In this document: positions 6,075 to 34,571 of the stretch, piece by piece | How the letters are laid out: the number at the start of each line of letters is the position of its first letter | How positions within the stretch are numbered: the stretch's first letter is position 1 | NCBI RefSeq assembly: GCF_002896875.1 | Contig: NZ_CP023278.1 | Location: 2,542,001-2,606,000 of the forward strand | DNA: 64,000 nt | Source of the DNA: Nostoc sp. CENA543 | GTDB lineage: Bacteria; Cyanobacteriota; Cyanobacteriia; Cyanobacteriales; Nostocaceae | Reading direction: 5' to 3' | Notes under the pieces: model-generated | Told to the model about the DNA's origin: nothing | Database searches by the model: none | The model's input: only the letters and a program-made list of their open reading frames with translations | Position numbers and translations under genes: made by a program

Positions 6075-9000
6075 GTGTTGCTTCACCACTGCCTACACAA
6101 ATTACAAACATCTCCCTATTGTCTCACAGCGACAATAATCTTTGCTGTGACGACATCTGTTATACTAAATCACAGCCAAACTGCTGTAGCAGAGATTATT
6201 GAAGATAAAACATTACCCGATAATTCTCAAGTTACCTTATCTCGTAGAACTTTCTTAATTGAAGGTGGCACTCAGATTGGGAATAATCTATTTCACAGTT
6301 TCTCTGAGTTTTCTTTACCAGAAAATTACATAGCTTACTTTAATAATCATACAGATATTCAAAATATTTTTAGTCGTGTTACAGGCAACAAAGCATCTTA
6401 TATCAATGGGTTAATTCAGGTAAATCCAGGAGCGAATCTATTTCTTATTAATCCTAACGGTATCAGTTTTGGTGCCAAAGCGCAATTGCGAATCGGCGGC
6501 TCATTTTTTGCCAGTACCGCTAATAGTATTAATTTTAATAATGGTGAAAAATTTAGTACCAAACCCGAAGAAAGTTCACCTTTACTGACAGTCAAAACTC
6601 CCATCGGCTTACAAATTGGCATAGATAAAGAAAAGCCTCTGACTAAAGTTGAAACGCTGGAAACACCCATTGGGCTAGAATTCGCCTCCAAGCCAGGGAA
6701 TATCATTGTTCAAGGCGAATCCCTGTTAGATAGAGCTAACCTACAAGTACCCTTTGATCAAACATTAGCTTTAGTCGGTGGCGATATATTTTTAGAAAAT
6801 GCCGATTTGAGTATCTCAAGGTTTGGAGGAAGAATAGAATTAGGCAGTGTAGCATCAGCAGGTTTTGTAGGCTTAACATCCACGAAATTAGGTACTATTC
6901 TTAACTTTGACCAAGCCCCTGATTTGGGGAACATTCAGATATCCTCAGCAACAAATATAAATTCTTTGGGTGCTTTGCAAGTTGTAGGGAGAAATATTCT
7001 TATTAATGGCAGTACATTAAAAGCCCAGACTGATATAAATTTGCAGGCGACAGAAAACATCCAACTATCTCATAATAGTTCTATTCACTCACAAGTTTCT
7101 GGGAGAAATAGCGGCGATTTCAACATCAATACGCAAAATTTGTTAATTCAAGATGGGTCTTATCTGGGTATAGATAAAGGTAACTTGAACATCAACGCAT
7201 CAGATACAGTACAACTCAACAGTAACCCCGATACTACCGTACAGGGTTCTAGTCTGCTCTTTGCCACGGCTTCGGGAGATATTAACCAACAAGTGGGAAA
7301 CATAACTATCAATACTCGCCATCTAGTAGTAGACAATGGTTCACAAATTCTCACTAATTCTTCTGGCAGTGCGGCTCCTAGTTTATTAAGTTATGATCAG
7401 GCGATCGCCACAGTTGAAAGAAGTAATATAGCTATCAATGCTACTGAATCCGTCACTTTATCTGGGAGTTCATTAAATGAACTAAATCCCAGTGGTTTAT
7501 TTACTAGAACTTTTGAAGGTGGAGATAGTGGAACTATCACAGTTAACACCAAAGTTTTATCAATTACAGACGGCGCACAGATAGCTACTAATAATTTTAG
7601 TGACAGTCAAGCTGGTAACTTGAGAATTAATGCCACAGATAAACTAGAAATTATTGGTACTTCACGCACAGGGAAAATTTTTGCTGATTTCCTCGGTGGA
7701 GAAATTTTAGTAGATGATCCCGCCCCTGATGCTTCTTTAATATCTTTATCTTCTGCTCAAGGTTTGAGAATTCAAGGTACTCTACCTAGTGGTGTATTTA
7801 CTAACGCGCCAAGCGCGGGAGACGCAGGTAATATTGATATCAAAACCCGCATTTTAGTCACCCAAGATGGTGGACAAATCAGTTCTAATAACTTTAATCG
7901 GGGACATGGTGGTGATGTAACCATCAATGCGTCTGAACAGGTGCAACTTTTGGGGACTTCCCCGAATGGAATATCTAGCGGTTTATTTACCAGAGCAAAT
8001 CCCAGAACCACGGGAGATGCTGGTACATTAAATCTTTTCACTGGTAATTTACTAGTAAAAGATGGGGCGCAGGTAAGCGCAAGTACCTTTGGCGCAGGAA
8101 CAGGGGGAGTTTTAAATGTTGAAGTCACTGACGGAATAAAACTCATCGGTGTTTCGCGTCTCAATGTCCCCAGTGGTTTGTTTACTCAAGCTAATGCTGG
8201 TAGTACCGCAGATGCGGGAGAACTGACTATCAATACCTCTACTCTGTTGGTGCAAAACGGAGCGCAAATCAGCGCAAGTACCTTTGGTACGGGTAATGGT
8301 GGTAATTTGACTGTGAAAGCCACAGCAGGGATTGAATTAATTGGCACTTCTAAAAATGAAAATTTATTCCCAAGTGGTTTGTTTGCTATCACTGCCCGTA
8401 GAGCCACAGGGGATGCGGGTAATCTTACAGATGAAACTTTTGCTAGCACCTACAGCAAAGGCGATACCACAGGGGATGCTGGTAATCTGATAGTAGATAC
8501 TCCTAAATTGTTAGTGCGCGATGGAGCGCAAATTGCCGCTAGCACTAGCAGCGAAGGTAAAGCTGGTAATGTAACAGTGAATGTTCCCGATAGAGTGCAA
8601 ATAATCGGGACGGCTGTAAATGGTGCGTTTCCTAGCGGTTTATTCGTTTCCGGTACTCCAGAGTCTAGCGGTAATGCTGGTAACTTGATCATCAAAACCA
8701 ATGTATTAGAAGTTTTTCACGGTGCAGGGATAGCAGTACGAAATCGAGGAAGCGGTAGTGCAGGTAACTTATTTGTCAATACCCGTTCTATGGAGTTGAA
8801 TAATCAAGCTTTCATCAGTGCTGATACGCGCGGTGTCAGTAATAACCCTAGTCAACTACAGGCTAATATTAACCTTAGTTCTCAAGACCTCATATTGCTG
8901 CGTGGCCGTAGCAGCATCACCACCAATGCCACAGGAAATAATGTGATTGGGGGTAATATTAACATTGATACCAAGTTGTTAGCCGCCTTTGAAAATAGTG

Positions 9001-22582: not shown

Positions 22583-22690
22583 TTGATTGGGGATTGGGGA
22601 CTGGGAATGGGGTATTGGGAATGGGGCATGGGGTATTGGGCATTGGGGTATTGACTCTTAAAAACCCCTACACCCCTACACCCTTATACC
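22583..22690. repeat. GGGGATT/GGGGCAT and ACACCCCT repeats between usp and hoxE
   Basis: Degenerate heptamers (GGGGATTGGGGACTGGGAAT, TGGGGTATTGGG) followed by (CCCCTACACCC)-type units up to about 22705, which overlap the 3' end of usp. Confidence 0.8.
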
Positions 22691-23374: not shown

Positions 23375-23407
23375 AGAAGGAAAGTAAAGTCAGTAACAAT
23401 GTTCTTG

Positions 23408-23423
23408 ATTGATGTATATCAAT
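23408..23423. promoter_or_regulatory. FNR/CRP-type palindrome TTGAT-N4-ATCAA
   Basis: ATTGATGTATATCAAT contains a perfect match to the enterobacterial FNR consensus (TTGAT, four bases, ATCAA). It lies about 185 bp upstream of usp and 400 bp upstream of the small helical protein gene. Cyanobacteria have CRP-family regulators (NtcA, SyCRP1-like) but no classical FNR that I know of, so the binding protein is open. Confidence 0.35.
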
Positions 23424-23820
23424 AGTCTAAAAGACCCCCTGATAAAATCTTTGTTATATAAAATACACTTGTTCTGGATATGGGACTGGGGGGTGAGGTT
23501 TACCTCAGTTTTTCCCCATGAGATGAAAAGTCAGATTCAAGCTTGGTTCATTTATATCGCTATCTCAGCCATTTTGCTCTAGTATAAAAAAGTAATGTAA
23601 TCTAAATGTAAACACTAGTAAATTCTCCAAAAGTAGGCTTTTCATTAGTCAAAGCTGTTAATTTTACTGACACTGGGCTGGCGATCGCCCAATTACATGA
23701 AATTCAACTGTTGTTGCATCAACCTTTGACAATTAGCTGGCTGATTAAGAAATATCAAAAAATGTTTCATTTAAAACGCTAAAAGCAGTGTAAATTCGGA
23801 TATTAGATGAGGTAAATAGT

Positions 23821-24270
23821 ATGGATATTGTATTTCTGACTAAATTATTAGCCCCCTGTCTGCCCTATTTGCTCAAATTAGGTGGGATAGCGGTCGAAAA
23901 AACTACAGAAAAGGTTGGAGAAAGCATTGCTCCAGATATCTGGGAAACGGCTAAGAAAATTTGGTCGAAATTAGGTACAAAGGTTGAATCTAAAGAGGAA
24001 TTGAAGGTAGCAGCTGAACAAGTAGCAGCAAAACCTGAAAGTTCAGCCCGTCAAGCCGTATTTCAAGAAGAACTAGAAATTTTGCTCCAGGATAACCCAG
24101 AGTTAGCTGAAGAGATAGCCAAAATATTGCAAGGAGAACAGTCAACCGCAACAGGAGTTCAGATCAATCAAACCATCACCAATAATGAAGGACAGGCTAT
24201 TGGACAAATGAACAATAGTAAGGCGATTGGCAGAATTGACGGCAATATTCAGGGTGGGGTGAGTTTTTAA
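23821..24270 (+). CDS. Small helical protein with C-terminal amyloid-like motif; candidate Bell-type effector
   Basis: 149 residues. The first 105 are predicted helical: a hydrophobic start (LTKLLAPCLPYLLKLGG), amphipathic helices with WETAKKIWSKL, and a charged region ending EELEILLQDNPELAEEIAK. This resembles the Bell domain, the proposed bacterial counterpart of fungal HeLo/HET-S pore-forming domains. Residues 113-142 carry QINQTITNNEGQAIGQM followed by AIGRI, nearly the same as residues 17-45 of the next protein. In NLR-associated bacterial amyloid signalling pairs the effector bears the motif C-terminally and the STAND protein bears it N-terminally, exactly as here. GAGG precedes ATG; the next gene follows after 52 bp, so an operon is likely. 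The function assignment rests on architecture and memory of the family. Confidence 0.6.
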   Translation: MDIVFLTKLLAPCLPYLLKLGGIAVEKTTEKVGESIAPDIWETAKKIWSKLGTKVESKEELKVAAEQVAAKPESSARQAVFQEELEILLQDNPELAEEIAKILQGEQSTATGVQINQTITNNEGQAIGQMNNSKAIGRIDGNIQGGVSF

Positions 24271-24322
24271 CGATTCAATTTATTCTCTGGAAGTCCCTTG
24301 AGATAATTGAGGCGATCGCATT

Positions 24323-26563
24323 ATGCAAAATAATTCAGATATTGATCTAGTTTCCCCTTCTCACTCAACTAATCAGATTCAGCAGGATATTGGCAATAAT
24401 TCCGGGCAAGCGATCGCACAGATGATTGGTGGGATGGCTATCGGTCAACTCACAGTCTATCTTTCTCAAGTCCGAACTGAGTTAGAAACTTCTCAACCGC
24501 CTACACATAAGCTGGGCGCAAATCCCTATCAAGGCTTATTAGCATTTCGAGAAATGGATGGCGATCGCTTTTTTGGACGAGACAAGCACATTGAGCAACT
24601 ATGGCAGAGATTTCGTCAGCTTCATGACAATGAAACTACGGTGCGGGTGCTACCTATATATGGCCCATCGGGTTCAGGAAAATCTTCACTAGCAAGGGCT
24701 GGTCTAATCCCCAAACTGGGAGCTAACCCCTTACCAGGAAGGAATCAGGCGCGATTGGTGGTACTTGTACCAGGAACTCACCCCCTTGAGTCTCTTGCCA
24801 CTATGTTGGCGCGGATTGCAACTAATGATCCCACCCCAGTAAGTAAGACACGGGAATTTGCCCAAGAACTCATCCAGCAAAACAATCATCAAGAATATGA
24901 TGGCTTGCGGCGTATTGCTGATGTCTTTCCTGATATTGCTGTCTCTCCCTTAATTATTTTGGTGGATCAGTTTGAGGAAGTTTACACACTTTGTAAAGAT
25001 CAAGTCGAACGCGACGCTTTTGTCGGAAATTTGCTGTGTGCAGCAGCCGAACCTTCAAAACGAGTGTCTGTGATTTTGACGTTACGGAGTGACTTTTTAG
25101 GCGAAACCCAACAACACCCACGCCTCAACAAACTCTTCTCTGAGCAAGGGTTTCTCGTGCCAACTATGCAGCCAGAGGATTTAGAAGCAGCTATTGCTCA
25201 ACCAGCAGCACAAGCCGGATATAAGTTAGACAGTGCAATTGTCAAACTTCTAGTAGAGCAAACCCAAGGACGAGAAGCTTTACCTCTATTACAATTTGCC
25301 CTGACGCGGATTTGGGAAGGCTTACAAAACGGAGTTGATCCAGCCGAAACCCTAGAAAATCTTGGTGGTGTAGGTGGCGCACTGACTGGAGAAGCACAAC
25401 GCCTGTATGAAACTTTGAATGAGGAAGATAAAGCGATCGCTCGACGGATTTTTTTAGCATTGGTAGAACTAGGGGAAGGCACAAAAAACACCCGTCGCCG
25501 TGCTGCTTTGTCAGAACTGATTGCTGATGAAAAGGAAGCCAAATCAGTTAGGTCGATAATTGATCGTTTTGCTGCGCCTGGAGTACGATTTTTAGCCACC
25601 TTCTCAGATAAACAGTCTGGTGAAATGATTGAAGTTGCCCACGAAGCGATGATTCGTAACTGGGGACAACTGCAAGAATGGTTAACTCAATGCCAAGAAA
25701 ATCTCCGCAAGAAACGCAAAATCGAGCAAGCGGCGGAAGAATGGGTAGATAAGGGCAAATCCAAAGAATACGTTCTTCAAGGTCGTTCTCTGCGCGATGC
25801 CAGGGAGTTTATGCAAGCCCAAAAAGATTATCGAGAAACTGCACTCTCAAGTTTAGCAAAGGAATTTGTGACAGCTAGTTGGAGGAAGGAGAGAGGCGAT
25901 CGTTGGAAAGTAACTGGATTTTTTCTGGCTTTTCCATTGATAGGAACACTTATGATTTTGCATTTTCTAGTGATTTTTAGAGCAGAACAAATGATGAAGA
26001 GTAAGGAATGTGAACCTAATTTGGATGCTCCATTTATTCTTCGATATATGTTGTGGACAGGTTATAAAGAGTTACAAAACAGAGATTTTTGTGGAGAAAT
26101 CCTTACTGGAATTGATTTTAAACGTGCTAACCTTTCTTATTCTAGTTTACAAAACGCAAGTCTTGGTAATGCTAACCTTCGGGGAACTTCTTTGATAAGA
26201 ACTAATTTTCAGAATGCTTTTCTTGTGGAAGCTAATCTCATAGCTAGTATTATGAAGGATGCAAAAATGCAAAACTCGAATCTTTTAGGTGCTAACCTAA
26301 AAAATTCTACTCTCAAAGGTGCTAGCTTACAAAAAGCTAACCTTAAACAAGCAAATCTATCAGGTGCTGACCTTTCTTATGCCAATCTTACAGATGCCAA
26401 TCTTACAGATGCCAATCTTACAGATACTGATCTTAGATATAGTAAAGGACTTACCAAAGAGCAAATCAGTCATGCTAAGGTTCTTTGTAGAACTAAACTA
26501 CCTAACGAAATTTTTATAAAATTAAGTAACAATGAAAGAAGAAATATAGAATGTAAATATTAA
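24323..26563 (+). CDS. STAND (nSTAND1-type) NTPase with N-terminal signalling motif, membrane segment and pentapeptide repeats
   Basis: 746 residues. Residues 17-45 hold NQIQQDIGNNSGQAIAQM then AIGQL, the motif shared with the preceding small protein. NPYQGLLAFREMD.RFFGR opens a novel-STAND NTPase with Walker A GPSGSGKS (114-121) and Walker B LIILVDQFEEV (210-220); LRSDFLG and the helical arm with VAHEAMIRNW follow. A membrane segment lies at about 529-552 and the C-terminal 600-710 is a pentapeptide-repeat beta-helix (ANLTDANLTDANL). STAND proteins are signalling switches that oligomerise on sensing a trigger; the pentapeptide part may be the sensor or scaffold. With the upstream gene it makes a plausible NLR-like cell-death or anti-phage pair. 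Confidence 0.8.
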   Translation: MQNNSDIDLVSPSHSTNQIQQDIGNNSGQAIAQMIGGMAIGQLTVYLSQVRTELETSQPPTHKLGANPYQGLLAFREMDGDRFFGRDKHIEQLWQRFRQLHDNETTVRVLPIYGPSGSGKSSLARAGLIPKLGANPLPGRNQARLVVLVPGTHPLESLATMLARIATNDPTPVSKTREFAQELIQQNNHQEYDGLRRIADVFPDIAVSPLIILVDQFEEVYTLCKDQVERDAFVGNLLCAAAEPSKRVSVILTLRSDFLGETQQHPRLNKLFSEQGFLVPTMQPEDLEAAIAQPAAQAGYKLDSAIVKLLVEQTQGREALPLLQFALTRIWEGLQNGVDPAETLENLGGVGGALTGEAQRLYETLNEEDKAIARRIFLALVELGEGTKNTRRRAALSELIADEKEAKSVRSIIDRFAAPGVRFLATFSDKQSGEMIEVAHEAMIRNWGQLQEWLTQCQENLRKKRKIEQAAEEWVDKGKSKEYVLQGRSLRDAREFMQAQKDYRETALSSLAKEFVTASWRKERGDRWKVTGFFLAFPLIGTLMILHFLVIFRAEQMMKSKECEPNLDAPFILRYMLWTGYKELQNRDFCGEILTGIDFKRANLSYSSLQNASLGNANLRGTSLIRTNFQNAFLVEANLIASIMKDAKMQNSNLLGANLKNSTLKGASLQKANLKQANLSGADLSYANLTDANLTDANLTDTDLRYSKGLTKEQISHAKVLCRTKLPNEIFIKLSNNERRNIECKY

Positions 26564-26659
26564 TTTTTTTAAATTAACTGAAGGTTTTGATCATCAAAAG
26601 TATTAATACAGATAAATTTGCAATTTAGCATATTATCTATTTTTTCTATCTTATGTACT

Positions 26660-28885
26660 CTATCTCAATCTCCAACATTCATTTACTTTTTCATATTCTT
26701 TAGTAGAGTTTCCATCACTACAGTATGCAATATTGTTATCAACAGTACATATTTTTTCCTTTATATTATGCTCTTTTTTACAAAGTGTAATTTTTAGCTG
26801 ATTATATAAATCAACTCTATCTTCAGAGATATCATATCTACTGGCATGATCAAAACTATTAATATTAGAAACACATTCTGACAAAGCCTTGATAGCCGCA
26901 TCTCTCACAGTATCATTATGACTTTTCAAAGCTTCAGTTAAAACTTGAATGGCAGTTTCCTGATATTTACCGAATTTTATTAACCCTTGGGCTATGGAAA
27001 TGTGTTGGAGAAATATTTTAGACGATTCCAAGCTTTTATGAACTTTGACTACCTGACCTCTGATGTTCTTTTCCTCTTCTTTTTTCCAACAATCTTCTAA
27101 AGATTGTCGCAATAAATAAATTGATTTAGCTATTACTGAGCGAGGTACAAAATCTACTTCACTAACTATTAATTCAACATCTTCAATTTCATTATTTTTA
27201 ATTCTTTCTTCAAGAATCTGCTCAATTTCCCATAAAATTTCATCTAATTTGGCTTTGAGTTTAGGAAAATCAGAAGGCATTTTTTGTCTCCTTGTTGTTG
27301 AAATATCGAGCAATTGTTTTTTTGCTAATTGCGGAGGATGGGACAAAGATAATGCAGAGTCATCAAACCTCATTCCCCAGACTACATTTTTCACTTCTTC
27401 TATCGAGGCATAAGCATCAGCTAATCCATAACCCGTAGCTAAATCTGGGCCTTGATGCGCCTGATAGCCCCCCGTACTTGGATGACTAGACCCTTCAACA
27501 ACATCGCGGGCTGTGTGTTGTAAAATTTCCTTGACTTTTGCTGGAGATAATCCAGAATCAAGCTGTTTCATCAAGGCACAAATGCCGGCTAACTGCGGTG
27601 CTGCGGCTGAAGTACCGCTAAAGGCAGCCCATCCATCCGTGGGTTTTGTACCATCACCGACAGAAGAATGCTCCTGATCTTTCTGACTACCAGGAGGTAC
27701 AGGCAACATAATATAAGCTCCATAGGGAAGCTGACCAACCAACCCACATACATCTGGAACCCTGCGCCCTTGATAAATTTGACTGATAAAACTGCTGGCG
27801 TAATTACTCGCTTCCAACTGTCCCTTCAACAGTCCATCCAAATGCTGATAAACACCACCTACTGAAATTACATCTGGATGTTGTGATGGAAAGCTCCATT
27901 GACCATTTCCAGAAGCAAAAATGACGATAATTCCCTGGCGCACAGCATCAGCAATGGCTGAGGCTAAGGCTTGATTAAAGGGAGACAATTTGTGATCGCT
28001 CAGATCACAGCCCCAACTGCAAGTGATAATATCTGGTCGTAGGGAAACAGCCTTTTTAAAGGCAGCGACTGAGTTGACATTCTTGAACTTGCCTGGATTG
28101 GTGAGAACATCAGCTTTAACCATCGTCAACTCGACATCAGGAGCCACAGCTAACAAATTGGCAGATTCCCCAGTTCCATGACCATTCTCGTCTTCTAAAG
28201 GAGCAGATGAACCAGGCGCAAGGACGACATTTACCTTGTAGTTATGCTTAGTGAAAAACGGATGACGATACCATCCAGTATCAACCATGACCACCTTGAC
28301 ACCTCTACCTGTGATGCCTTGTTGATGAGCTAAAGTGGCATTTAATCCTTGAGCGATGTCTTCTGGTACACGCAGATACTTTGTGGTTGTTTCTGGTGGA
28401 GACTCACGCAGATATTTTCTAGTTGTTTCTAGTGGAGAATCTAGAGAAATTTGGGGTCGGAAATAGAAAGCAGGCTCATTGATGGCAATTCCATCTAGAA
28501 GCTGATCCCAACTGGTTTGTGATGTATCAATTTCACCAAAGGGTTTGTCATCTCTGGCATTGATAAATGTCGCTGTTGTTTCCCCAACTATCTCCTTAAT
28601 GACGGGACGCTCAACTGCCTCTAAAGTTGTCTGAAGCGATCGCTCATAAACTTCGGCATCGGCAGCTATACTAATCGATGTCTTGCTCACGTTTAAAATC
28701 TCAAACCCTTCTGCTTTGAGGCGGTTCACTGCTGAGTCTAATAGGCGCGGTTCTGCATAAAATTGAGTCACATTCTCACAGGTGACAGGCGTAGAAGAGT
28801 GCAACAATGACTCTCCACTCACTGAACGAACGATGGCTTCAGTGTATATTTTTGAAGGTAATTTTGCCTGTCTTGCCTTGCTCAT
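26660..28885 (-). CDS. Subtilisin-like serine protease (S8) with helical C-terminal extension
   Basis: 741 residues. Catalytic D202 (MVDTGW), H236 (ENGHGTG), oxyanion N327 (ASGNG) and S426 (FSGTSAAAP) are all present. The first 140 residues are a prodomain-like region; no clear signal peptide, so it may be cytoplasmic. Residues 150-172 contain a duplicated segment (PLETTRKYLRES / PPETTTKYLRVP). After the protease domain (ending about 500) comes a coiled, charged helical region with a HEAT-like part (AIQVLTEALKSHNDTVRDAA) and a short Cys-bearing tail. It converges on the STAND gene, 97 bp apart. Proteases are common effectors in STAND systems, but no shared motif links it to the pair, so association is only suggested. 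Confidence 0.85.
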   Translation of the reverse strand: MSKARQAKLPSKIYTEAIVRSVSGESLLHSSTPVTCENVTQFYAEPRLLDSAVNRLKAEGFEILNVSKTSISIAADAEVYERSLQTTLEAVERPVIKEIVGETTATFINARDDKPFGEIDTSQTSWDQLLDGIAINEPAFYFRPQISLDSPLETTRKYLRESPPETTTKYLRVPEDIAQGLNATLAHQQGITGRGVKVVMVDTGWYRHPFFTKHNYKVNVVLAPGSSAPLEDENGHGTGESANLLAVAPDVELTMVKADVLTNPGKFKNVNSVAAFKKAVSLRPDIITCSWGCDLSDHKLSPFNQALASAIADAVRQGIIVIFASGNGQWSFPSQHPDVISVGGVYQHLDGLLKGQLEASNYASSFISQIYQGRRVPDVCGLVGQLPYGAYIMLPVPPGSQKDQEHSSVGDGTKPTDGWAAFSGTSAAAPQLAGICALMKQLDSGLSPAKVKEILQHTARDVVEGSSHPSTGGYQAHQGPDLATGYGLADAYASIEEVKNVVWGMRFDDSALSLSHPPQLAKKQLLDISTTRRQKMPSDFPKLKAKLDEILWEIEQILEERIKNNEIEDVELIVSEVDFVPRSVIAKSIYLLRQSLEDCWKKEEEKNIRGQVVKVHKSLESSKIFLQHISIAQGLIKFGKYQETAIQVLTEALKSHNDTVRDAAIKALSECVSNINSFDHASRYDISEDRVDLYNQLKITLCKKEHNIKEKICTVDNNIAYCSDGNSTKEYEKVNECWRLR

Positions 28886-29567
28886 GACACACAGATATTT
28901 ACCATTACGGGTATAAGAAGTGTTTTACAGATATTCTCTAATATTTTGGTAGCATTTGGATCAAAATTCCCCATAAAGATTAATAATTTCCATAAATCAA
29001 TGAATTCCGCCAGAACCAGAGCCTAAAATAACTTTGAGTAAATCTGTTAAAATTACTTATACGTAAGCTTTGAAGTGACAAAGTATCTGATCGTTAGGAC
29101 TGACGCAGTCATATGAAGAAGGATTTCTCACCAATTCTTGCAACCTCAGTCCATAGTCCGTAGGGGTTGAGGGAAATCTTCGTGAATGAACCGAGTATAT
29201 CTGTGAACCCGCCTCTACTGTTTGGAGAAATGCGGGTTTAGCCTTTTTTGTTCGTAGTAAGGACTTTAGTCCTTTTTTGTTCGCGGAGCGTCTGTCTACG
29301 ACACGCTCCGCGAACGTAGAGAGAACTAAATTTCTCACTACAAACCTTTAATTTTCTACCTTTTTTTACTTCACATCTGACTTAAGTCATAATTTTTAAG
29401 TCAGTCCAAGTCTTACTAAAGTTTGATAAATATTGATATTTGTGAAAAATTATTAATAATAGGTGGATATAACATTTAAGATGCTTTTAAATTACTCACA
29501 TTAATAGCTTATTTTTTCACCCATAAAAAATATTTTGGGTTGATTAATTATTAAAATTTTATTAAAT
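28886..29567. other. Intergenic region with nested repeats, protease to phosphorelay gene
   Basis: The 93-codon open frame at 29057-29338 (minus) is made of repeat DNA and is rejected. Positions 29208-29236 form a hairpin (AACCCGC / GCGGGTT). Positions 29250-29345 hold an interspersed repeat interrupted by a palindrome. 29350-29567 is AT-rich and probably the promoter region of the large kinase. Confidence 0.6.
29250..29345. repeat. GTAGTAAGGACTTTAGTCCT-type repeat split by a perfect 13-bp palindrome
   Basis: Outer arms TTCGTAGTAAGGACTTTAGT and CTCACTACAAAC match the intact copy at 15463-15517. The insert includes GTTCGCGGAGCGT (29279-29291) and ACGCTCCGCGAAC (29303-29315), perfect inverted arms with an 11-nt loop. 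Confidence 0.8.
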
Positions 29568-32500
29568 ATGAAGATTTTAATTGTAGAGGATGATGAATTA
29601 AATGCCTCCGCGCTGAGTGTGGTGTTGGCAAACCAAAATTATGTGGTGGAATTGGCAACTGATGGTAATAGTGCTTGGGATTTAGTAGAAACTTATGATT
29701 ATGATTTAATTCTTTTAGATGTAATATTGCCAAAGCTAGATGGCATCAGTCTTTGTCGGCAAATTCGCGCTAGTGGGAGACAAATGCCAATTTTGCTCTT
29801 GACTGGTTGTGATAGTGGTCACGAAAAAGCCATTGGCTTAGATGCTGGTGCGGATGACTACGTAGTCAAACCCTTTGATCAAGAAGAATTAGTAGCCAGG
29901 ATACGCGCACTATTACGACGGGGGGGAACAGTATCGCAACCAATACTAGAATGTGGTAATTTACGACTTGATCCTAGCAGTTGTGAAGTTACCTATAGAC
30001 AAGAATTACTATCACTAACACCAAAAGAATATGCACTATTAGAATTATTTTTGCGAAATCATCGTCGGGTGTTTAGCTGTAGCATGATTTTGGAGCATCT
30101 TTGGTCTTATGAAGACACTCCCAGTGAAGAAGCAGTCCGCACCCATATTAAAGGCTTACGGATGAAGTTGAGAAATGCGGGAGTTCCTGGAGATTTAATT
30201 GAAACAGTCTATGGTATTGGGTATCGACTCACACCACAGGAGGAAGGGAACCAAAGCACAGGGGAAAAAGAACAAGCTACATCTAGTAAATCGCAGTTGG
30301 AGTCAACACAAACGGCAATAGCAGGGATTTGGTCAAGATTTTATGGACGGGTAGATGAGCAAGTCAAGATTTTAGAAGCAGCAGCTAACGGTGTTAAGCA
30401 AGGCAGTTTCAGTACAGAATTGCAATTACAAGCCAAACAAGAAGCGCATACATTAGCAGGTTCTCTCGGAACATTTGGAATACCAGAAGGTTCAAAGTTA
30501 GCCAAGAAAATTGAGCAGCTGTTGAAATCAGAAGCAACTTGGACACCTGCCGAAACTGGTAAATTGCAAAAGTGGGTGAAGTTATTGCGCCAAGAAGTAG
30601 CCGCACGTAAACCCACAGAAGAAACTACTATATCTAATACTAATGCTGATTTACCAAAACCCCAAGCTAGCAGCCAAAGTTTAGCAGCGATCGCCCCCAT
30701 ACAACAACTGCCCCACACCGAAGCCAAAGTCCTAGCCGTAGACGATGACCCCCAAATTCTGGCTTTATTACAAACCCTCCTCCATCCTTGGGGACTCAAA
30801 GTGATCACACTAGATGATCCCCGTCATTTTTGGGAAATATTGCCAGCCGAAAATCCCGATTTATTAATCTTAGACGTAGAAATGCCCCATACCAACGGCA
30901 TAGAACTATGTCAAATCATCCGTAATGATGCCCAATGGAGTGAACTGCCAATTCTCTTCCTCACAGTCCATAGTGATGCGGAAATTGTCAATCAAGTTTA
31001 TAGCGTCGGTGCTGACGATTTTGTCAGCAAACCCATCGTGGGGCCAGAACTAGTCACACGCATTATCAACCGTCTGGAACGAGTCAAACTACTCAGGCGA
31101 GTATCTGCAAGGAGTGCAGGGGTGCAGGGGTGCAGAAGCAGCAGGGGCGCAGGGGTGCAGGGGTGCAGGGGTGCAGAAGCAGCAGAGGTGCAGGTGAGAT
31201 TAAATCCCAATACCCAGTCCCCAGTCCCCAGTCCCCAATACCCAGTCCCCAGTCCCCATCCTCCCTTCACACTCAATAGCTGTGCCATCTTCGACGCTGA
31301 ACCAGATTGCGTCAAAATTGTGGCGGCTGATGGTACTTTATTGGCAATTAATCAAGCTGGGTTGACTATCTTAGGTGCAGATCATCCTGATACTGTGGTG
31401 GGTAAGTCTATCTATAATGTGATTGCTCCTGAATACCAACAGACATTTCTGCAATTCCATACAAGTGTCTGTCAAGGACAAAAAGGGACTTTGGAATTCG
31501 TGCTGATTAACCGTCAAGGTGAACGTCGTTGGGTGACAACTCACGCTGTTCCTTTACGCAACCCCACAGATGATAGCTGGGTACAGTTAGCGATTACACG
31601 GGATATTACCAACATTAAACAAGTAGAAGCAGAAATTCAGCGAGTGAATCGCACATTAAAAACCTTAAGTGACTGCAATCAGGCTCTAGTGCGGGCAGAT
31701 AATGAAGAAGATTTACTGCACCAAGTTTGCGAAATTTTAATCCAAGTCGGGGGTTATCGTTTGGCTTGGGTGGCTTACGCCAAAAATAATCCCCACAAAG
31801 ATATTTATCCAGTCGCCCAAGCAGGCTATGAGGATGGATATCTGCAATCTCTGCATCTGACTTGGGCGGATACAGTTCGTGGTCAAGGGCCGACTGGTAC
31901 GGCTATTCGTACAGGTAAAACCACAATTATTCAAAATATTTTGACTGATAGTCGTTATGAGATTTGGCGTTGTCAAGCAACGAGTCGGGGTTATGCAGCA
32001 TCTATTGCCTTACCATTAATTGCTAATGGTCAACCTTTTGGGGCTTTGAATATTTATGCAGCAGAACCCAACGCCTTTGATGTGCATGAAGTGCAGCTGT
32101 TAGAAGAACTCACAGCAGATTTAGGCTATGGAATTTTAGCATTACGCAATCAACGCGATCGCCAACGTGCTGAAGCTGCCCTGAAAGAAAGTGAAGAAAG
32201 TCTTGCCCTCGCCTTGGAAGCCGCTAATTTAGGCATTTGGGATTGGAATCTCATCACTAACCAAGTAACTTGCTCTGATGGCCATGCCAAATTATTTGGG
32301 ATGACGCTGAATGGTTCTGATGAAATCTGGAAAAACTGCGTTTTACCAGCCGACTTTTCAGGCATAGAGCAAGCAATTCTTGATGCTCAGCAACACAAAA
32401 CTGATTATAATCATGAATTTCGCGTGGTTTGGCCAGATGGCAGTATTCACTGGCTAGAAGGCACAGGTAAATTTTACTACGATGAATCTGGGCAGGCTGT

Positions 32501-34571
32501 GCGAATGTTAGGTACAGTCAGAGATATCAGTAATCGCAAGCAAATCGAAGCAGCTCTGCAAACTGCCAACAACGAATTAGAATTGAGAGTGGCAGAACGC
32601 ACAGCTGAGTTAGTCAATGTCAATCGTCAGCTACAATCACAACTTGATGAACGCCAACGCATCGAAGCAGCACTGCGGATTTCTCAAATCAGATTGGCAC
32701 GCATTTTAGATATTGCCGATGATGCCATTATCTCCATTGATAGCAACCAAAATATCACCCTGTTTAACCAAGGAGCAGAGAAGATTTTTGGCTACTCTGC
32801 TGAAGAAATTATCGGTCAAAGCCTTGATGTGCTTTTACCACAGCGTTTTACTCACAGCCATCGTCAGCACGTCAACGGTTTTAGCCAATCTCCCAGCATG
32901 GCGCGACGGATGGGAGAACGACGGGAAATATATGGTTGTCGGAAAGATGGGACAGAATTTCCGGCTGAGGCTTCCATCTCAAAGCTACATATAGAAAAAG
33001 ATATTATTTATACTGTGATTCTCAGAGATATTACAGAAAGAAAGCAAATTGAACGGATGAAAGATGAATTTGTGTCCGTCGTCAGCCATGAACTACGTAC
33101 ACCTTTAACCTCAATTCATGGTTCATTGGGAATGCTCACCAGTGGATTATTACCAGCAACCTCAGAACAAGGTAAACGGTTACTGCAAATTGCTACCGAC
33201 AGCACCGAACGCTTAGTCCGCTTAATTAATGACATCCTGGATATAGAAAGAATTGAGTCAGGTAGGGTGAAAATGGAGCGAGAAACCTGCATCCTCACCG
33301 ACTTGATAGAATCGGCTGTTAGTATTATGCAGCCCTTAGCTAATAAAGCCCAAGTTACACTCTCTGTAGAAAGTCCATCACTACAACTGTGGGTAGATCC
33401 TGACCGGATTGTGCAAACCTTAACTAATTTACTCAGTAATGCCATCAAGTTTTCCTCTCCAAATGCCACCGTGTGGCTAGCGGCGCAAAAATCCGGTGAT
33501 GAAGTCTTACTGACAGTTAAAGATACCGGTCGGGGAATTCCGGCTGACAAAATCCACAGTATTTTTGAACGCTTTCAGCAGGTAGATTCCTCAGATTCAC
33601 GTAACCATGAAGGTACAGGTTTAGGCTTGGCTATTTGTCAAAGTATCGTCCATCAACATGGCGGGAGAATTTGGGTGGAAAGTGTTTTGGGAGAAGGTAG
33701 CACCTTTTACTTTACACTGCCGATTTTGCCTATTCCCCCCAATCCTGAGTTAGTGGATGATTCTTCCTTCCCCAGTCCCCAATCCCCAATCCCTTATCCC
33801 CAATCCCCACTCGTCCTAGTTTGTGATGATGATGCAGTGATTCGGCTAGAAATGCAAACTCTCCTGGAAAAAGGGGGATATCGCGTGATTACTGTAGCGA
33901 CAGGAGAAGAAGCGATCGCGATCGCTGCTAACCAACATCCCAGCGTGATTGTACTGGATTTACTCATGCCAGAGATGAATGGTTGGGAAACAATGGCACA
34001 CTTAAAAGAACAAGCCCAAACCAAAGACATTCCCATTGTGATTTGCAGTGTCTATAAGCAAAGCAGCAATAGTCAAAATAGTAGTGATTTTGTGGATTGG
34101 GTGCGTAAACCAGTCCAAGAAAGTTATTTATTAAACTCCTTAAGACAAGTTATCGCTAAATATTCTCAACAAGCTCGAATTTTGGTGGTGGAAGATGATC
34201 CTGATTTAGTAGAACTACTGGCGACGTTATTTGAAAGACATGGCATTGAAACCTTTTGTGCCAAAACCGGTAGAGAAGCGATTCATCTGAGTCAAGAAGT
34301 CAATCCCGATTTGTTAATTCTAGATTTGATTTTACCGGAAACTGATGGTTTTGCGGTTGTTGATTGGTTACAGCAACATCATCATCTGTGTAATATTCCT
34401 TTAGTAGTTTATTCTGCCCAGGATTTAGACGAATCAGAACGCAACAGACTGAAGCTAGGACATACAGAATTTTTAACCAAAGGACGTGTCACTACCCAAG
34501 AATTTGAACAACGAGTTATGGAACTACTGCAAAGAATTACTCACCAACAATCAACAGGACAGCCATCATGA
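29568..34571 (+). CDS. Giant phosphorelay protein: REC-wHTH-Hpt-REC-PAS-GAF-PAS-PAS-HisKA-HATPase-REC-REC
   Basis: 1667 residues without membrane segments. REC1 (D51); OmpR-type winged-helix DNA-binding domain about 125-223 (LTPKEYALLELFLR, ETVYGIGYRL); Hpt about 255-345 with EAHTLAGSLG (H294); REC2 (D436); PAS about 569-685; GAF about 693-867; PAS about 872-995; PAS about 1038-1162; HisKA with VSHELRTPL (H1174); HATPase about 1290-1400; REC3 (D1464); REC4 (D1586). Kinase, Hpt, receivers and a DNA-binding output are thus all in one chain. The linker 514-566 is low complexity and encoded by (GGGGTGCA)- and (CCCCAGT)-type repeats; a second repeat-encoded linker lies at about 1400-1415. Its stop overlaps the next response-regulator gene (ATGA). 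Confidence 0.93.
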   Translation: MKILIVEDDELNASALSVVLANQNYVVELATDGNSAWDLVETYDYDLILLDVILPKLDGISLCRQIRASGRQMPILLLTGCDSGHEKAIGLDAGADDYVVKPFDQEELVARIRALLRRGGTVSQPILECGNLRLDPSSCEVTYRQELLSLTPKEYALLELFLRNHRRVFSCSMILEHLWSYEDTPSEEAVRTHIKGLRMKLRNAGVPGDLIETVYGIGYRLTPQEEGNQSTGEKEQATSSKSQLESTQTAIAGIWSRFYGRVDEQVKILEAAANGVKQGSFSTELQLQAKQEAHTLAGSLGTFGIPEGSKLAKKIEQLLKSEATWTPAETGKLQKWVKLLRQEVAARKPTEETTISNTNADLPKPQASSQSLAAIAPIQQLPHTEAKVLAVDDDPQILALLQTLLHPWGLKVITLDDPRHFWEILPAENPDLLILDVEMPHTNGIELCQIIRNDAQWSELPILFLTVHSDAEIVNQVYSVGADDFVSKPIVGPELVTRIINRLERVKLLRRVSARSAGVQGCRSSRGAGVQGCRGAEAAEVQVRLNPNTQSPVPSPQYPVPSPHPPFTLNSCAIFDAEPDCVKIVAADGTLLAINQAGLTILGADHPDTVVGKSIYNVIAPEYQQTFLQFHTSVCQGQKGTLEFVLINRQGERRWVTTHAVPLRNPTDDSWVQLAITRDITNIKQVEAEIQRVNRTLKTLSDCNQALVRADNEEDLLHQVCEILIQVGGYRLAWVAYAKNNPHKDIYPVAQAGYEDGYLQSLHLTWADTVRGQGPTGTAIRTGKTTIIQNILTDSRYEIWRCQATSRGYAASIALPLIANGQPFGALNIYAAEPNAFDVHEVQLLEELTADLGYGILALRNQRDRQRAEAALKESEESLALALEAANLGIWDWNLITNQVTCSDGHAKLFGMTLNGSDEIWKNCVLPADFSGIEQAILDAQQHKTDYNHEFRVVWPDGSIHWLEGTGKFYYDESGQAVRMLGTVRDISNRKQIEAALQTANNELELRVAERTAELVNVNRQLQSQLDERQRIEAALRISQIRLARILDIADDAIISIDSNQNITLFNQGAEKIFGYSAEEIIGQSLDVLLPQRFTHSHRQHVNGFSQSPSMARRMGERREIYGCRKDGTEFPAEASISKLHIEKDIIYTVILRDITERKQIERMKDEFVSVVSHELRTPLTSIHGSLGMLTSGLLPATSEQGKRLLQIATDSTERLVRLINDILDIERIESGRVKMERETCILTDLIESAVSIMQPLANKAQVTLSVESPSLQLWVDPDRIVQTLTNLLSNAIKFSSPNATVWLAAQKSGDEVLLTVKDTGRGIPADKIHSIFERFQQVDSSDSRNHEGTGLGLAICQSIVHQHGGRIWVESVLGEGSTFYFTLPILPIPPNPELVDDSSFPSPQSPIPYPQSPLVLVCDDDAVIRLEMQTLLEKGGYRVITVATGEEAIAIAANQHPSVIVLDLLMPEMNGWETMAHLKEQAQTKDIPIVICSVYKQSSNSQNSSDFVDWVRKPVQESYLLNSLRQVIAKYSQQARILVVEDDPDLVELLATLFERHGIETFCAKTGREAIHLSQEVNPDLLILDLILPETDGFAVVDWLQQHHHLCNIPLVVYSAQDLDESERNRLKLGHTEFLTKGRVTTQEFEQRVMELLQRITHQQSTGQPS
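31112..31262. repeat. Short tandem repeats inside the phosphorelay gene
   Basis: GGGGTGCAGAAGCAGCAG-type units (31117-31195), then CCCCAGTCCCCAATACCCAG-type heptamers (31204-31262). They are the same families as in hox spacers but here stay in frame and encode the linker (GVQGCR.. and SPVPSPQ..) between REC2 and the first PAS domain. Confidence 0.9.
33765..33812. repeat. CCCCAGT/CCCCAAT heptamers inside the phosphorelay gene
   Basis: About five heptamer units encode FPSPQSPIPYPQSP between the ATPase domain and the third receiver. Confidence 0.88.

Follow-up and report, generated by a model that had tools for sequence, protein, structure and literature searches.

We have found, in a stretch of 64,000 nucleotides of Nostoc sp. 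CENA543 (contig NZ_CP023278.1, positions 2,542,001 to 2,606,000; the whole stretch is called the window here, and coordinates are counted from its first letter), a small helical protein and an adjacent STAND NTPase of the NLR kind that carry a like motif, the former on its C-terminal tail and the latter at its N-terminal head. This tail-to-head pairing is shown by sequence in the window and by comparative genomics in its relatives and, judged from sequence, the layout is that of NLR-associated bacterial amyloid signalling, a kind of system already known. We consider it likely that the locus encodes an immune-type module in which a membrane-anchored NLR-like STAND receptor acts with a small membrane-targeting effector through a matched motif that probably forms cross-beta structure, a subtilase being the third component. 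A motif identity far above chance, the tail-to-head matching, fusions of the small domain to CHAT and NACHT proteins, a conserved hydrophobic segment and cysteines in the receptor, and the linkage of the subtilase gene all support this reading.

The window pair and its shared motif

The small-protein gene and the STAND gene lie on the same strand (+) with a gap of 52 nt between them, and the features of the locus are the following:

23821..24270, + strand: open reading frame (ORF) of a small helical protein of 149 amino acids (aa), a Bell-like candidate effector whose N-terminal segment is hydrophobic and Pro-kinked, with helices as far as residue 110 and then a motif tail
24157..24267, + strand: motif at the C-terminus of the small protein (residues 113-149), of which residues 114-139 (24160-24237) are common to the NLR
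24323..26563, + strand: STAND NTPase (nSTAND1) of 746 aa with an N-terminal motif, one predicted transmembrane segment and a pentapeptide beta-helix
24374..24451, + strand: N-terminal motif of the NLR, residues 18-43, placed by sequence comparison
24524..25765, + strand: nSTAND1 NTPase domain, residues 68-481 (Pfam PF20703, E 9.3e-108)
25922..25978, + strand: predicted transmembrane segment, residues 534-552 (mean hydropathy 2.41)
26087..26437, + strand: pentapeptide beta-helix, residues 589-705, a predicted extracytoplasmic sensor (Pfam, AlphaFold2 (AF2) and divergence)
26660..28885, - strand: subtilase (Peptidase_S8) of 741 aa with an N-terminal extension and a variable C-terminus (Pfam PF00082, E 3.8e-27)
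23383..29369, no strand: segment of about 6 kb that holds exactly these three genes and is absent from the same site in the nearest relative

The segments QINQTITNNEGQAIGQMNNSKAIGRI (residues 114-139 of the small protein) and QIQQDIGNNSGQAIAQMIGGMAIGQL (residues 18-43 of the NLR) are identical at 15 of 26 positions, with a BLASTP E of 3e-5 in a single comparison and a Smith-Waterman score of 69. When the tail (residues 109-149) was shuffled and compared with the first 60 residues of the NLR, the scores had a mean of 26 (sd 5.3) and a maximum of 59, none of 20,000 shuffles reaching 69, and when the whole small protein was shuffled and compared with the whole NLR this score was reached once in 2,000 trials. 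Searched against its own genome (7.2 Mb), the small protein has the N-terminus of its neighbour as its only other match at E<=1, a weak one on the genome-wide scale (E 0.39), and no second copy of the small protein was found there. Furthermore, a 30-position profile of the motif found both window sites at E ~1e-13 and its next match was no better than 0.06; as the profile was built including both window sequences, only the gap to the next match is informative. The preliminary description of this DNA had claimed that the two neighbouring proteins share a C-terminal and N-terminal motif, about half identical, and that the second protein is a STAND NTPase with pentapeptide repeats and a membrane segment. 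These claims are borne out by the identities and the far lower shuffled scores, by both ORFs lying as placed, by the Pfam matches to nSTAND1 (E 9e-108) and to pentapeptide repeats, and by one strong hydrophobic stretch at residues 534-552. The Walker A (GPSGSGKSS) and Walker B-like (LIILVDQFEE) motifs of the nSTAND1 domain are intact by eye.

In the small protein, AF2 predicts helices at residues 3-10, 14-20, 38-57, 59-70, 75-91 and 93-110, with a mean predicted local distance difference test score (pLDDT) of 68, and the tail has no confident structure (residues 107-149 below 50). The N-terminal segment is hydrophobic (mean of 1.53 over 19 residues) and contains a proline kink, P12 and P15 being invariant across 46 aligned small-protein sequences. 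In the comparison that gave this mean, the rows of L032 and L033 started at residue 2. When the window was compared with four orthologues (L032-L035), the helical body (residues 1-105) gave nonsynonymous rates (dN) of 0.05-0.07 and synonymous rates (dS) of 0.54-0.80, and the tail (residues 113-149) gave dN of 0.05-0.07 and dS of 0.14-0.92. In the available text of PMC7889193, Bell is a small bundle of helices, one of them hydrophobic; the predicted helices and the hydrophobic start of the small protein fit this wording, a likeness in description that does not speak to homology. The 46 homologues gave scattered weak Pfam matches (best E 0.0003), and neither HeLo nor MLKL was among the 50 of 75 Foldseek matches listed for the predicted fold. 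Two candidates were set aside: Miga as the small-protein family, at 17 bits for a cut-off of 25, and the 20 distinct sequences of a profile search against PDB sequences, in which designed helical proteins came first (best E 0.0077) and F-BARs lower, rejected as helical background.

Motif pairing across relatives and its partners

Homologues of the small protein (E<=0.001) occur at 120 places in 88 of the 217 genomes of the family, the own genome included. Flanks of up to 6 kb on each side were compared at 80 of the 119 places outside the window, the best-scoring ones down to E 7.8e-13 with one partial match omitted. The small-protein ORF was recovered by script at 78 of these 80 loci, which together with the window gives 79. 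The two losses were genome G159 (L033:5998-6444), where the conserved first codon, the one before residue 2, is not ATG, GTG or TTG and which was read by hand from residue 2, and G208 (L109), where the match is split into two separate pieces. Tails were scored against the downstream neighbour at the 73 loci where an ORF of 200 aa or more follows the small-protein gene on the same strand at a distance of up to 1.5 kb, at a threshold of at least 45 and a looser one of at least 35, and were grouped into classes by single linkage.

Across the 79 loci the helical body is conserved and the tails differ widely, falling into several classes. The tail-to-neighbour scores of the 73 scored loci sum to 3,843, and none of 10,000 permutations did as well (2,629 at most). 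The own pair scored at least 45 in 47 of the 73 loci, a score found in none of the 73 when the helical body was used in place of the tail and in 5 of 1,460 comparisons with shuffled tails. By class, the threshold was reached in 22/22 loci of class 0 (which includes the window and the majority of the relatives whose small domain follows a long N-terminal extension), 18/23 of class 1 (22/23 at the looser threshold), 4/4 of class 3 and 3/3 of three small classes; the remaining locus, L111, has no match downstream (0/1) and its tail matches instead a CHAT gene upstream. The 26 loci below 45 are thus 20 of class 2, five of class 1 and L111. Moreover, both genes retain the motif in each of the family's five orthologous pairs, one of which is the window pair, and in pairs further removed; different motifs are likewise common to tail and head at many other loci. 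The preliminary description had taken lack of such conservation as grounds for giving up its reading, and on this count its core claim stands. These results also bear on the possibility that the likeness is functionless, the product of a recent local duplication or of chance low-complexity resemblance. The tails are generally rich in N, S, G and Q, as chance resemblance would have it, but the shuffles and permutations, the low dN of the tail and the repetition of the pattern in other pairs with different motifs make this explanation scarcely credible.

The proteins that carry the matching heads are diverse. In a Pfam scan of ten neighbours they were nSTAND1-pentapeptide (L034), iSTAND (L038), nSTAND1-WD40 (L041, L102), NB-ARC (L083), NB-ARC-TPR (L066) and NACHT-GUN4 (L096) proteins. 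The L107 neighbour gave TPR only, that of L108 nothing at 1e-5 and a weak NB-ARC in another Pfam scan, that of L086 (class 2) TPR among the 25 of 29 families listed, and the neighbour of L037 is an NB-ARC protein. A long N-terminal extension precedes the small domain at 12 of the 79 loci, and both of those scanned (L040 and L089) have CHAT, one of them also EAD1. These fusions of the same domain to CHAT proteases support the candidate role of the small protein as an effector.

One peptide pattern, scanned against a genome collection, yielded 63 named loci, of which 45 are cyanobacterial, 17 from Chloroflexi and one from Nitrospirota; in an even sample of the phylum the domain was present in 25 of 386 genomes (E<=1e-4). 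The names of the cyanobacterial loci are mostly those of filamentous genera; Acaryochloris (L128; plasmid match H1) is unicellular. Among 19 further loci checked by script, the adjacent downstream ORF has a matching head in eight (L122, L126, L127, L128, L148, L158, L162 and L167), some of them from Chloroflexi and that of L126 being only 124 aa long. The match is to the C-terminal part of the upstream ORF in L157 and L161 and to an inner stretch of the downstream ORF in L163. In two Chloroflexi metagenome-assembled genomes (MAGs; L151 and L179) the small domain and a motif-like stretch lie ahead of NACHT and FGE-sulfatase in a single chain, the L151 frame being open at the contig start. No convincing match was found in this check in L159, L164, L165, L172 and L180, and L168 has no ORF.

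The motif also links the small protein to iSTAND genes. In L127 (a Leptolyngbyaceae MAG), L128 (an Acaryochloris MAG) and L160 (Anabaena subtropica FACHB-260), a small protein with a related motif is encoded directly upstream of a motif-headed gene, which is followed by a gene of 334-337 aa and another of ~950-1,017 aa (the last one running off the locus in L127). Pfam gave iSTAND and AAA in L127 and iSTAND in L160 (which is also L038); the assignment of L128 is by resemblance. From their position we take the second and third genes to be the MoxR and vWA components; in L127 the 25 of 33 Pfam families listed included WD40 repeats and no vWA. Apart from these loci, the iSTAND-type protein of L212 (and, in pieces, of L214; contigs G083:C42 and G021:C363) has two different head motifs, one like that of the window and one, GGMQAIQGNNN, resembling a segment of the CHAT-like protein encoded just upstream; this receptor may address two effectors.

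A different explanation of the pairing follows the principle of the effector-associated domains (EADs): the common segment would act as a folded adaptor, or as a homotypic docking peptide of small size, and recruit the small protein to the STAND oligomer in a finite complex. EADs at the N-termini of STAND and iSTAND proteins pair with effectors (Kaur et al.; PMC8195603, PMC7159879, in the parts of these papers available), and in L111 the paired segment lies partly under Pfam EAD10, at 24.9 bits for a cut-off of 24.1 in one partner and 22.4 in the other, so that the motif and EAD descriptions overlap. On the other side, the segment has only 26-36 residues, the N/S/G/Q-rich tails lack confident predicted structure, no EAD model is among the Pfam matches of either window protein, and the same function is served by several classes that do not resemble one another, which is easier to reconcile with short self-templating motifs than with a single fold. 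We therefore regard docking of this kind as rather unlikely in the window. As for L111 itself (L111:5671-6441 and 6530-7819), EAD10, at least, and a motif of the amyloid-signalling kind may be the same element named twice.

The probable membrane receptor and the linked subtilase

The hydrophobic segment of the STAND protein at residues 534-552 is present in all six NLR sequences aligned, with means of 2.19-2.51. In these sequences the 15 residues before it contain 4-5 K/R (5 in the window) and the 15 after it 1-3 (3 in the window), an excess that predicts the N-terminus to be inside. Exactly four cysteines follow the segment, at the same alignment positions in 6/6 sequences (563, 590, 722 and 744 in the window, flanking the beta-helix), in a region where 27 of 195 positions are invariant. 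In the four orthologue comparisons dN was 0.050-0.073 in the NTPase and 0.29-0.53 in residues 581-746, five- to tenfold higher. The dS rose as well, from 0.29-0.37 in the NTPase to 0.71-1.76 in the pentapeptide part, so that recombination or repeat misalignment may explain part of the divergence, and positive selection is not claimed. AF2, run with six sequences, gave pLDDT 92-97 for residues 601-710 and a mean of 56 for the whole protein, in which only the beta-helix is trustworthy; low-confidence strands at residues 31-40 and 43-51 were not used as evidence. Taken on its sequence features, the pentapeptide beta-helix is probably a diversifying extracytoplasmic sensor. The preliminary description had proposed this beta-helix and the membrane segment as an unusual sensor or platform, and both parts stand; the likely extracytoplasmic placement and the subtilase gene go beyond it.

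The subtilase gene is convergent to the NLR gene and ends 96 nt from it. The motifs that contain the D, H and S of its triad begin at residues 201, 235 and 423, and the triad is intact by sequence. Among the 217 genomes, close orthologues (76-84% over the best stretch) occur in G111, G159, G164 and G165 besides the window genome (G000), and the same five genomes hold the small protein at 85-100% identity. The three genes are adjacent in four of them, and in G111 the pair is close to the end of one contig and the subtilase to that of another; the reading frame of the subtilase is shorter in G164 (546 codons). L122, a cyanobacterial MAG of more distant kinship, has all three genes too, with 54-55% for the small protein and 54% for the subtilase. 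Less similar subtilases (45-56%) are found in six further genomes, and among the 80 loci only L032, L033 and L034 hold one of the window type.

The three genes form a discrete segment. Homology to G208 (L192), the nearest relative with the same neighbours, ends at 23382 and restarts at 29370, with ~200 bp of other sequence between, and the distance between the flanking genes, which we take to be a universal-stress-protein (usp) gene and a response-regulator gene, is 6,345 bp in the window and 524-816 bp in eight genus relatives (L192-L196, L199-L201). In L197 and L198, the other two of the ten compared among the twelve other genus members, the response-regulator gene lies apart from the hox/usp genes. 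As one three-gene segment is lacking at the same site in relatives, the three genes came, or went, together, and the membership of the subtilase in the module is shown by this linkage.

The inhibitor reading, in which the motif would tether the small protein as an antitoxin-like partner and the effector would be the STAND protein or the subtilase, should be considered here. It agrees with a small gene that directly precedes the STAND gene in the same orientation and with a linked subtilase whose triad looks intact, but the small domain stands behind CHAT proteases and ahead of NACHT in two Chloroflexi chains, both of them effector positions, and it is common to more than one NLR type. We hold this reading to be improbable.

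Several other observations were made around these genes. The last 51 residues of the subtilase (26663-26812, the 3' end of the gene) are very variable, with 15-31% identity in four comparisons; by eye this end keeps several cysteines, and the variable ends of the subtilase and NLR genes face each other. In two of the six genomes with the less similar subtilases, G084 and G031 (L182:4085-8809 and L183:3385-8423), a related subtilase is convergent to a gene that reads by eye as HEAT-transmembrane-STAND, and no small-protein homologue was found on these stretches; this subtilase may accompany membrane STAND proteins more widely. In L197 and L198, different small-protein/NLR pairs are found at ~3 and 6 kb from the orthologue of the response-regulator gene, in another gene order (compare window 29568-34571), and the region is a possible hot spot for such pairs. 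Short tandem repeats common to many places nearby occur at 22585-22653 and 31205-31261, the second inside a large hybrid sensor/regulator ORF.

Proposed mechanism and comparison with known systems

In the mechanism we propose, a ligand (a phage or injury cue) would bind the pentapeptide beta-helix on the non-cytoplasmic side of the inner or thylakoid membrane, and the cytoplasmic NTPase would then exchange nucleotide and oligomerise, as expected from the STAND family. The clustered N-terminal motifs of the NLR would nucleate an ordered, presumably amyloid-like assembly and template their counterpart on the tail of the small protein, whose clustering could drive its hydrophobic N-terminal segments into the membrane, by analogy with Bell and HeLo, so that the cell would be killed or shut down. 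The subtilase might process a component or act as a second executioner. Amyloid formation and killing by the window pair are what we infer from analogy with known systems. A fuller scheme, with a transmembrane STAND receptor whose disulfide-capped, fast-diversifying beta-helix probes the periplasm or the thylakoid lumen, a killer protein templated through amyloid, a dedicated subtilase and a motif that also couples the killer to iSTAND-MoxR-vWA systems, is tentative, and we lean somewhat against its holding in every part.

There are also observations that weigh against the proposed module. The small protein has no family at cut-off in Pfam or NCBIfam, the best PDB match of its predicted fold in Foldseek is not significant (E 1.8), and its N-terminal segment is moderately hydrophobic (1.53), so that its location may be peripheral instead. 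The topology of the NLR, a predicted transmembrane protein, is drawn solely from hydropathy and charge. Six of the 79 loci could not be scored: L054, L089 and L100 reach a contig end, the neighbour of L036 is on the opposite strand, and L068 and L103 have short ORFs only. None of the 20 class 2 loci has a matching head on the adjacent downstream ORF. These loci (L053, L055, L057, L058 and 16 others) have a conserved tail of the NAQSYDESIQINTAGN type and an ORF starting 38-185 nt downstream that is NB-ARC-like by its P-loop and its resemblance to class 1 partners, and they are a true exception, in which either the motif rule fails or the partner is encoded elsewhere. Furthermore, matching appears to be mostly at the level of the class: among the 51 loci with an own score of at least 35 the own partner ranks first by itself in only eight, the median locus has five of the 73 heads scoring higher, and in 48 of the 51 the top-scoring head of any other locus comes from the same tail class. 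Swapped pairs were equally good in class 1 (4,501 of 5,000 permutations), and class 3 showed no clear own-partner refinement (1,065/5,000). Own pairs beat swapped ones in class 0 (0/5,000 as good), which joins several sub-motifs, so that part of this advantage is sub-class agreement. Finally, the subtilase gene is convergent and thus outside the operon, and three of the five genomes that hold it with the small protein belong to one genus, so that the five do not represent five independent events. Of the overall reading in the preliminary description, a Bell effector paired with an NLR by an amyloid-like motif, the motif pairing is supported in the window and its relatives, the assignment of the small protein finds no support among curated families, and the class 2 loci depart from the rule.

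If the module acts as proposed, amyloid-type NLR signalling would be common in this cyanobacterial family, with the effector domain in 88 of 217 genomes, would use a plug-and-socket set of interchangeable motifs and would extend beyond cytoplasmic receptors and classic NLRs. It would also offer a testable module of two or three genes and a natural series of paired motifs for studying the specificity of amyloid signalling and the avoidance of cross-talk between co-resident systems.

The defining paper for Bell and BASS1-10 is said to be that of Dyrka et al. 2020. As described in the available text of two papers (PMC7889193, PMC9815663), NLR-associated bacterial amyloid signalling consists of a Bell effector, a BASS motif and an NLR, and ten motif families are found in actinobacteria, cyanobacteria and archaea (PMC9815663). 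The window resembles these systems, as far as that text goes, in its adjacent genes, in the placing of like motifs, 20-40 residues long, at the end of a small helical protein and at the start of an NLR, in a STAND/NLR partner with a repeat region, in its cyanobacterial host and in the association of the small domain with CHAT. It is unlike them in its apparently transmembrane receptor with a pentapeptide sensor, in the linked subtilase and in the pairing of the same domain with iSTAND. The BASS3/RHIM-like core, given as G-(I,V)-Q-(I,V)-G in the text available of PMC7885112, was absent as G[IVLM]Q[IVLM]G from both window proteins, from the 79 tails and from the 73 neighbour N-termini.

In fungal HET-S/NLR and HELLP/PNT1 signalosomes (PMC7885112, PMC7889193, in the same available text), an NLR head templates the tail motif of a membrane-acting effector, as proposed by analogy for the window; unlike them, the window system has a bacterial domain with no PDB fold match and no sequence relation to them was seen (none was tested). 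The gene layout of L127, L128 and L160 is like that of the MoxR-vWA-iSTAND ternary conflict systems, from what is available of PMC7159879, whereas the nSTAND1 of the window looks active by sequence and has no such AAA or third gene beside it. We found no statement of a link between amyloid motifs and iSTAND in the literature searched, the word amyloid being absent from the available text of PMC7159879 and occurring once each, in reference titles, in that of PMC8195603 and PMC10907252. No paper on a pentapeptide- or subtilisin-linked module of this kind was among the literature matches listed, and the window proteins gave no convincing match to PADLOC models (best E 0.0072, to mad3, and 0.025, the small protein having nothing better than the latter). 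Avs and other anti-phage STAND systems have a STAND NTPase with a repeat sensor, as in the window, and unlike Avs the window system encodes its effector separately. As far as our searches reach, three features of this system are new with respect to the known ones: the subtilase linked to it, a probably transmembrane receptor that has pentapeptide repeats and four fixed cysteines, and the connection to iSTAND.

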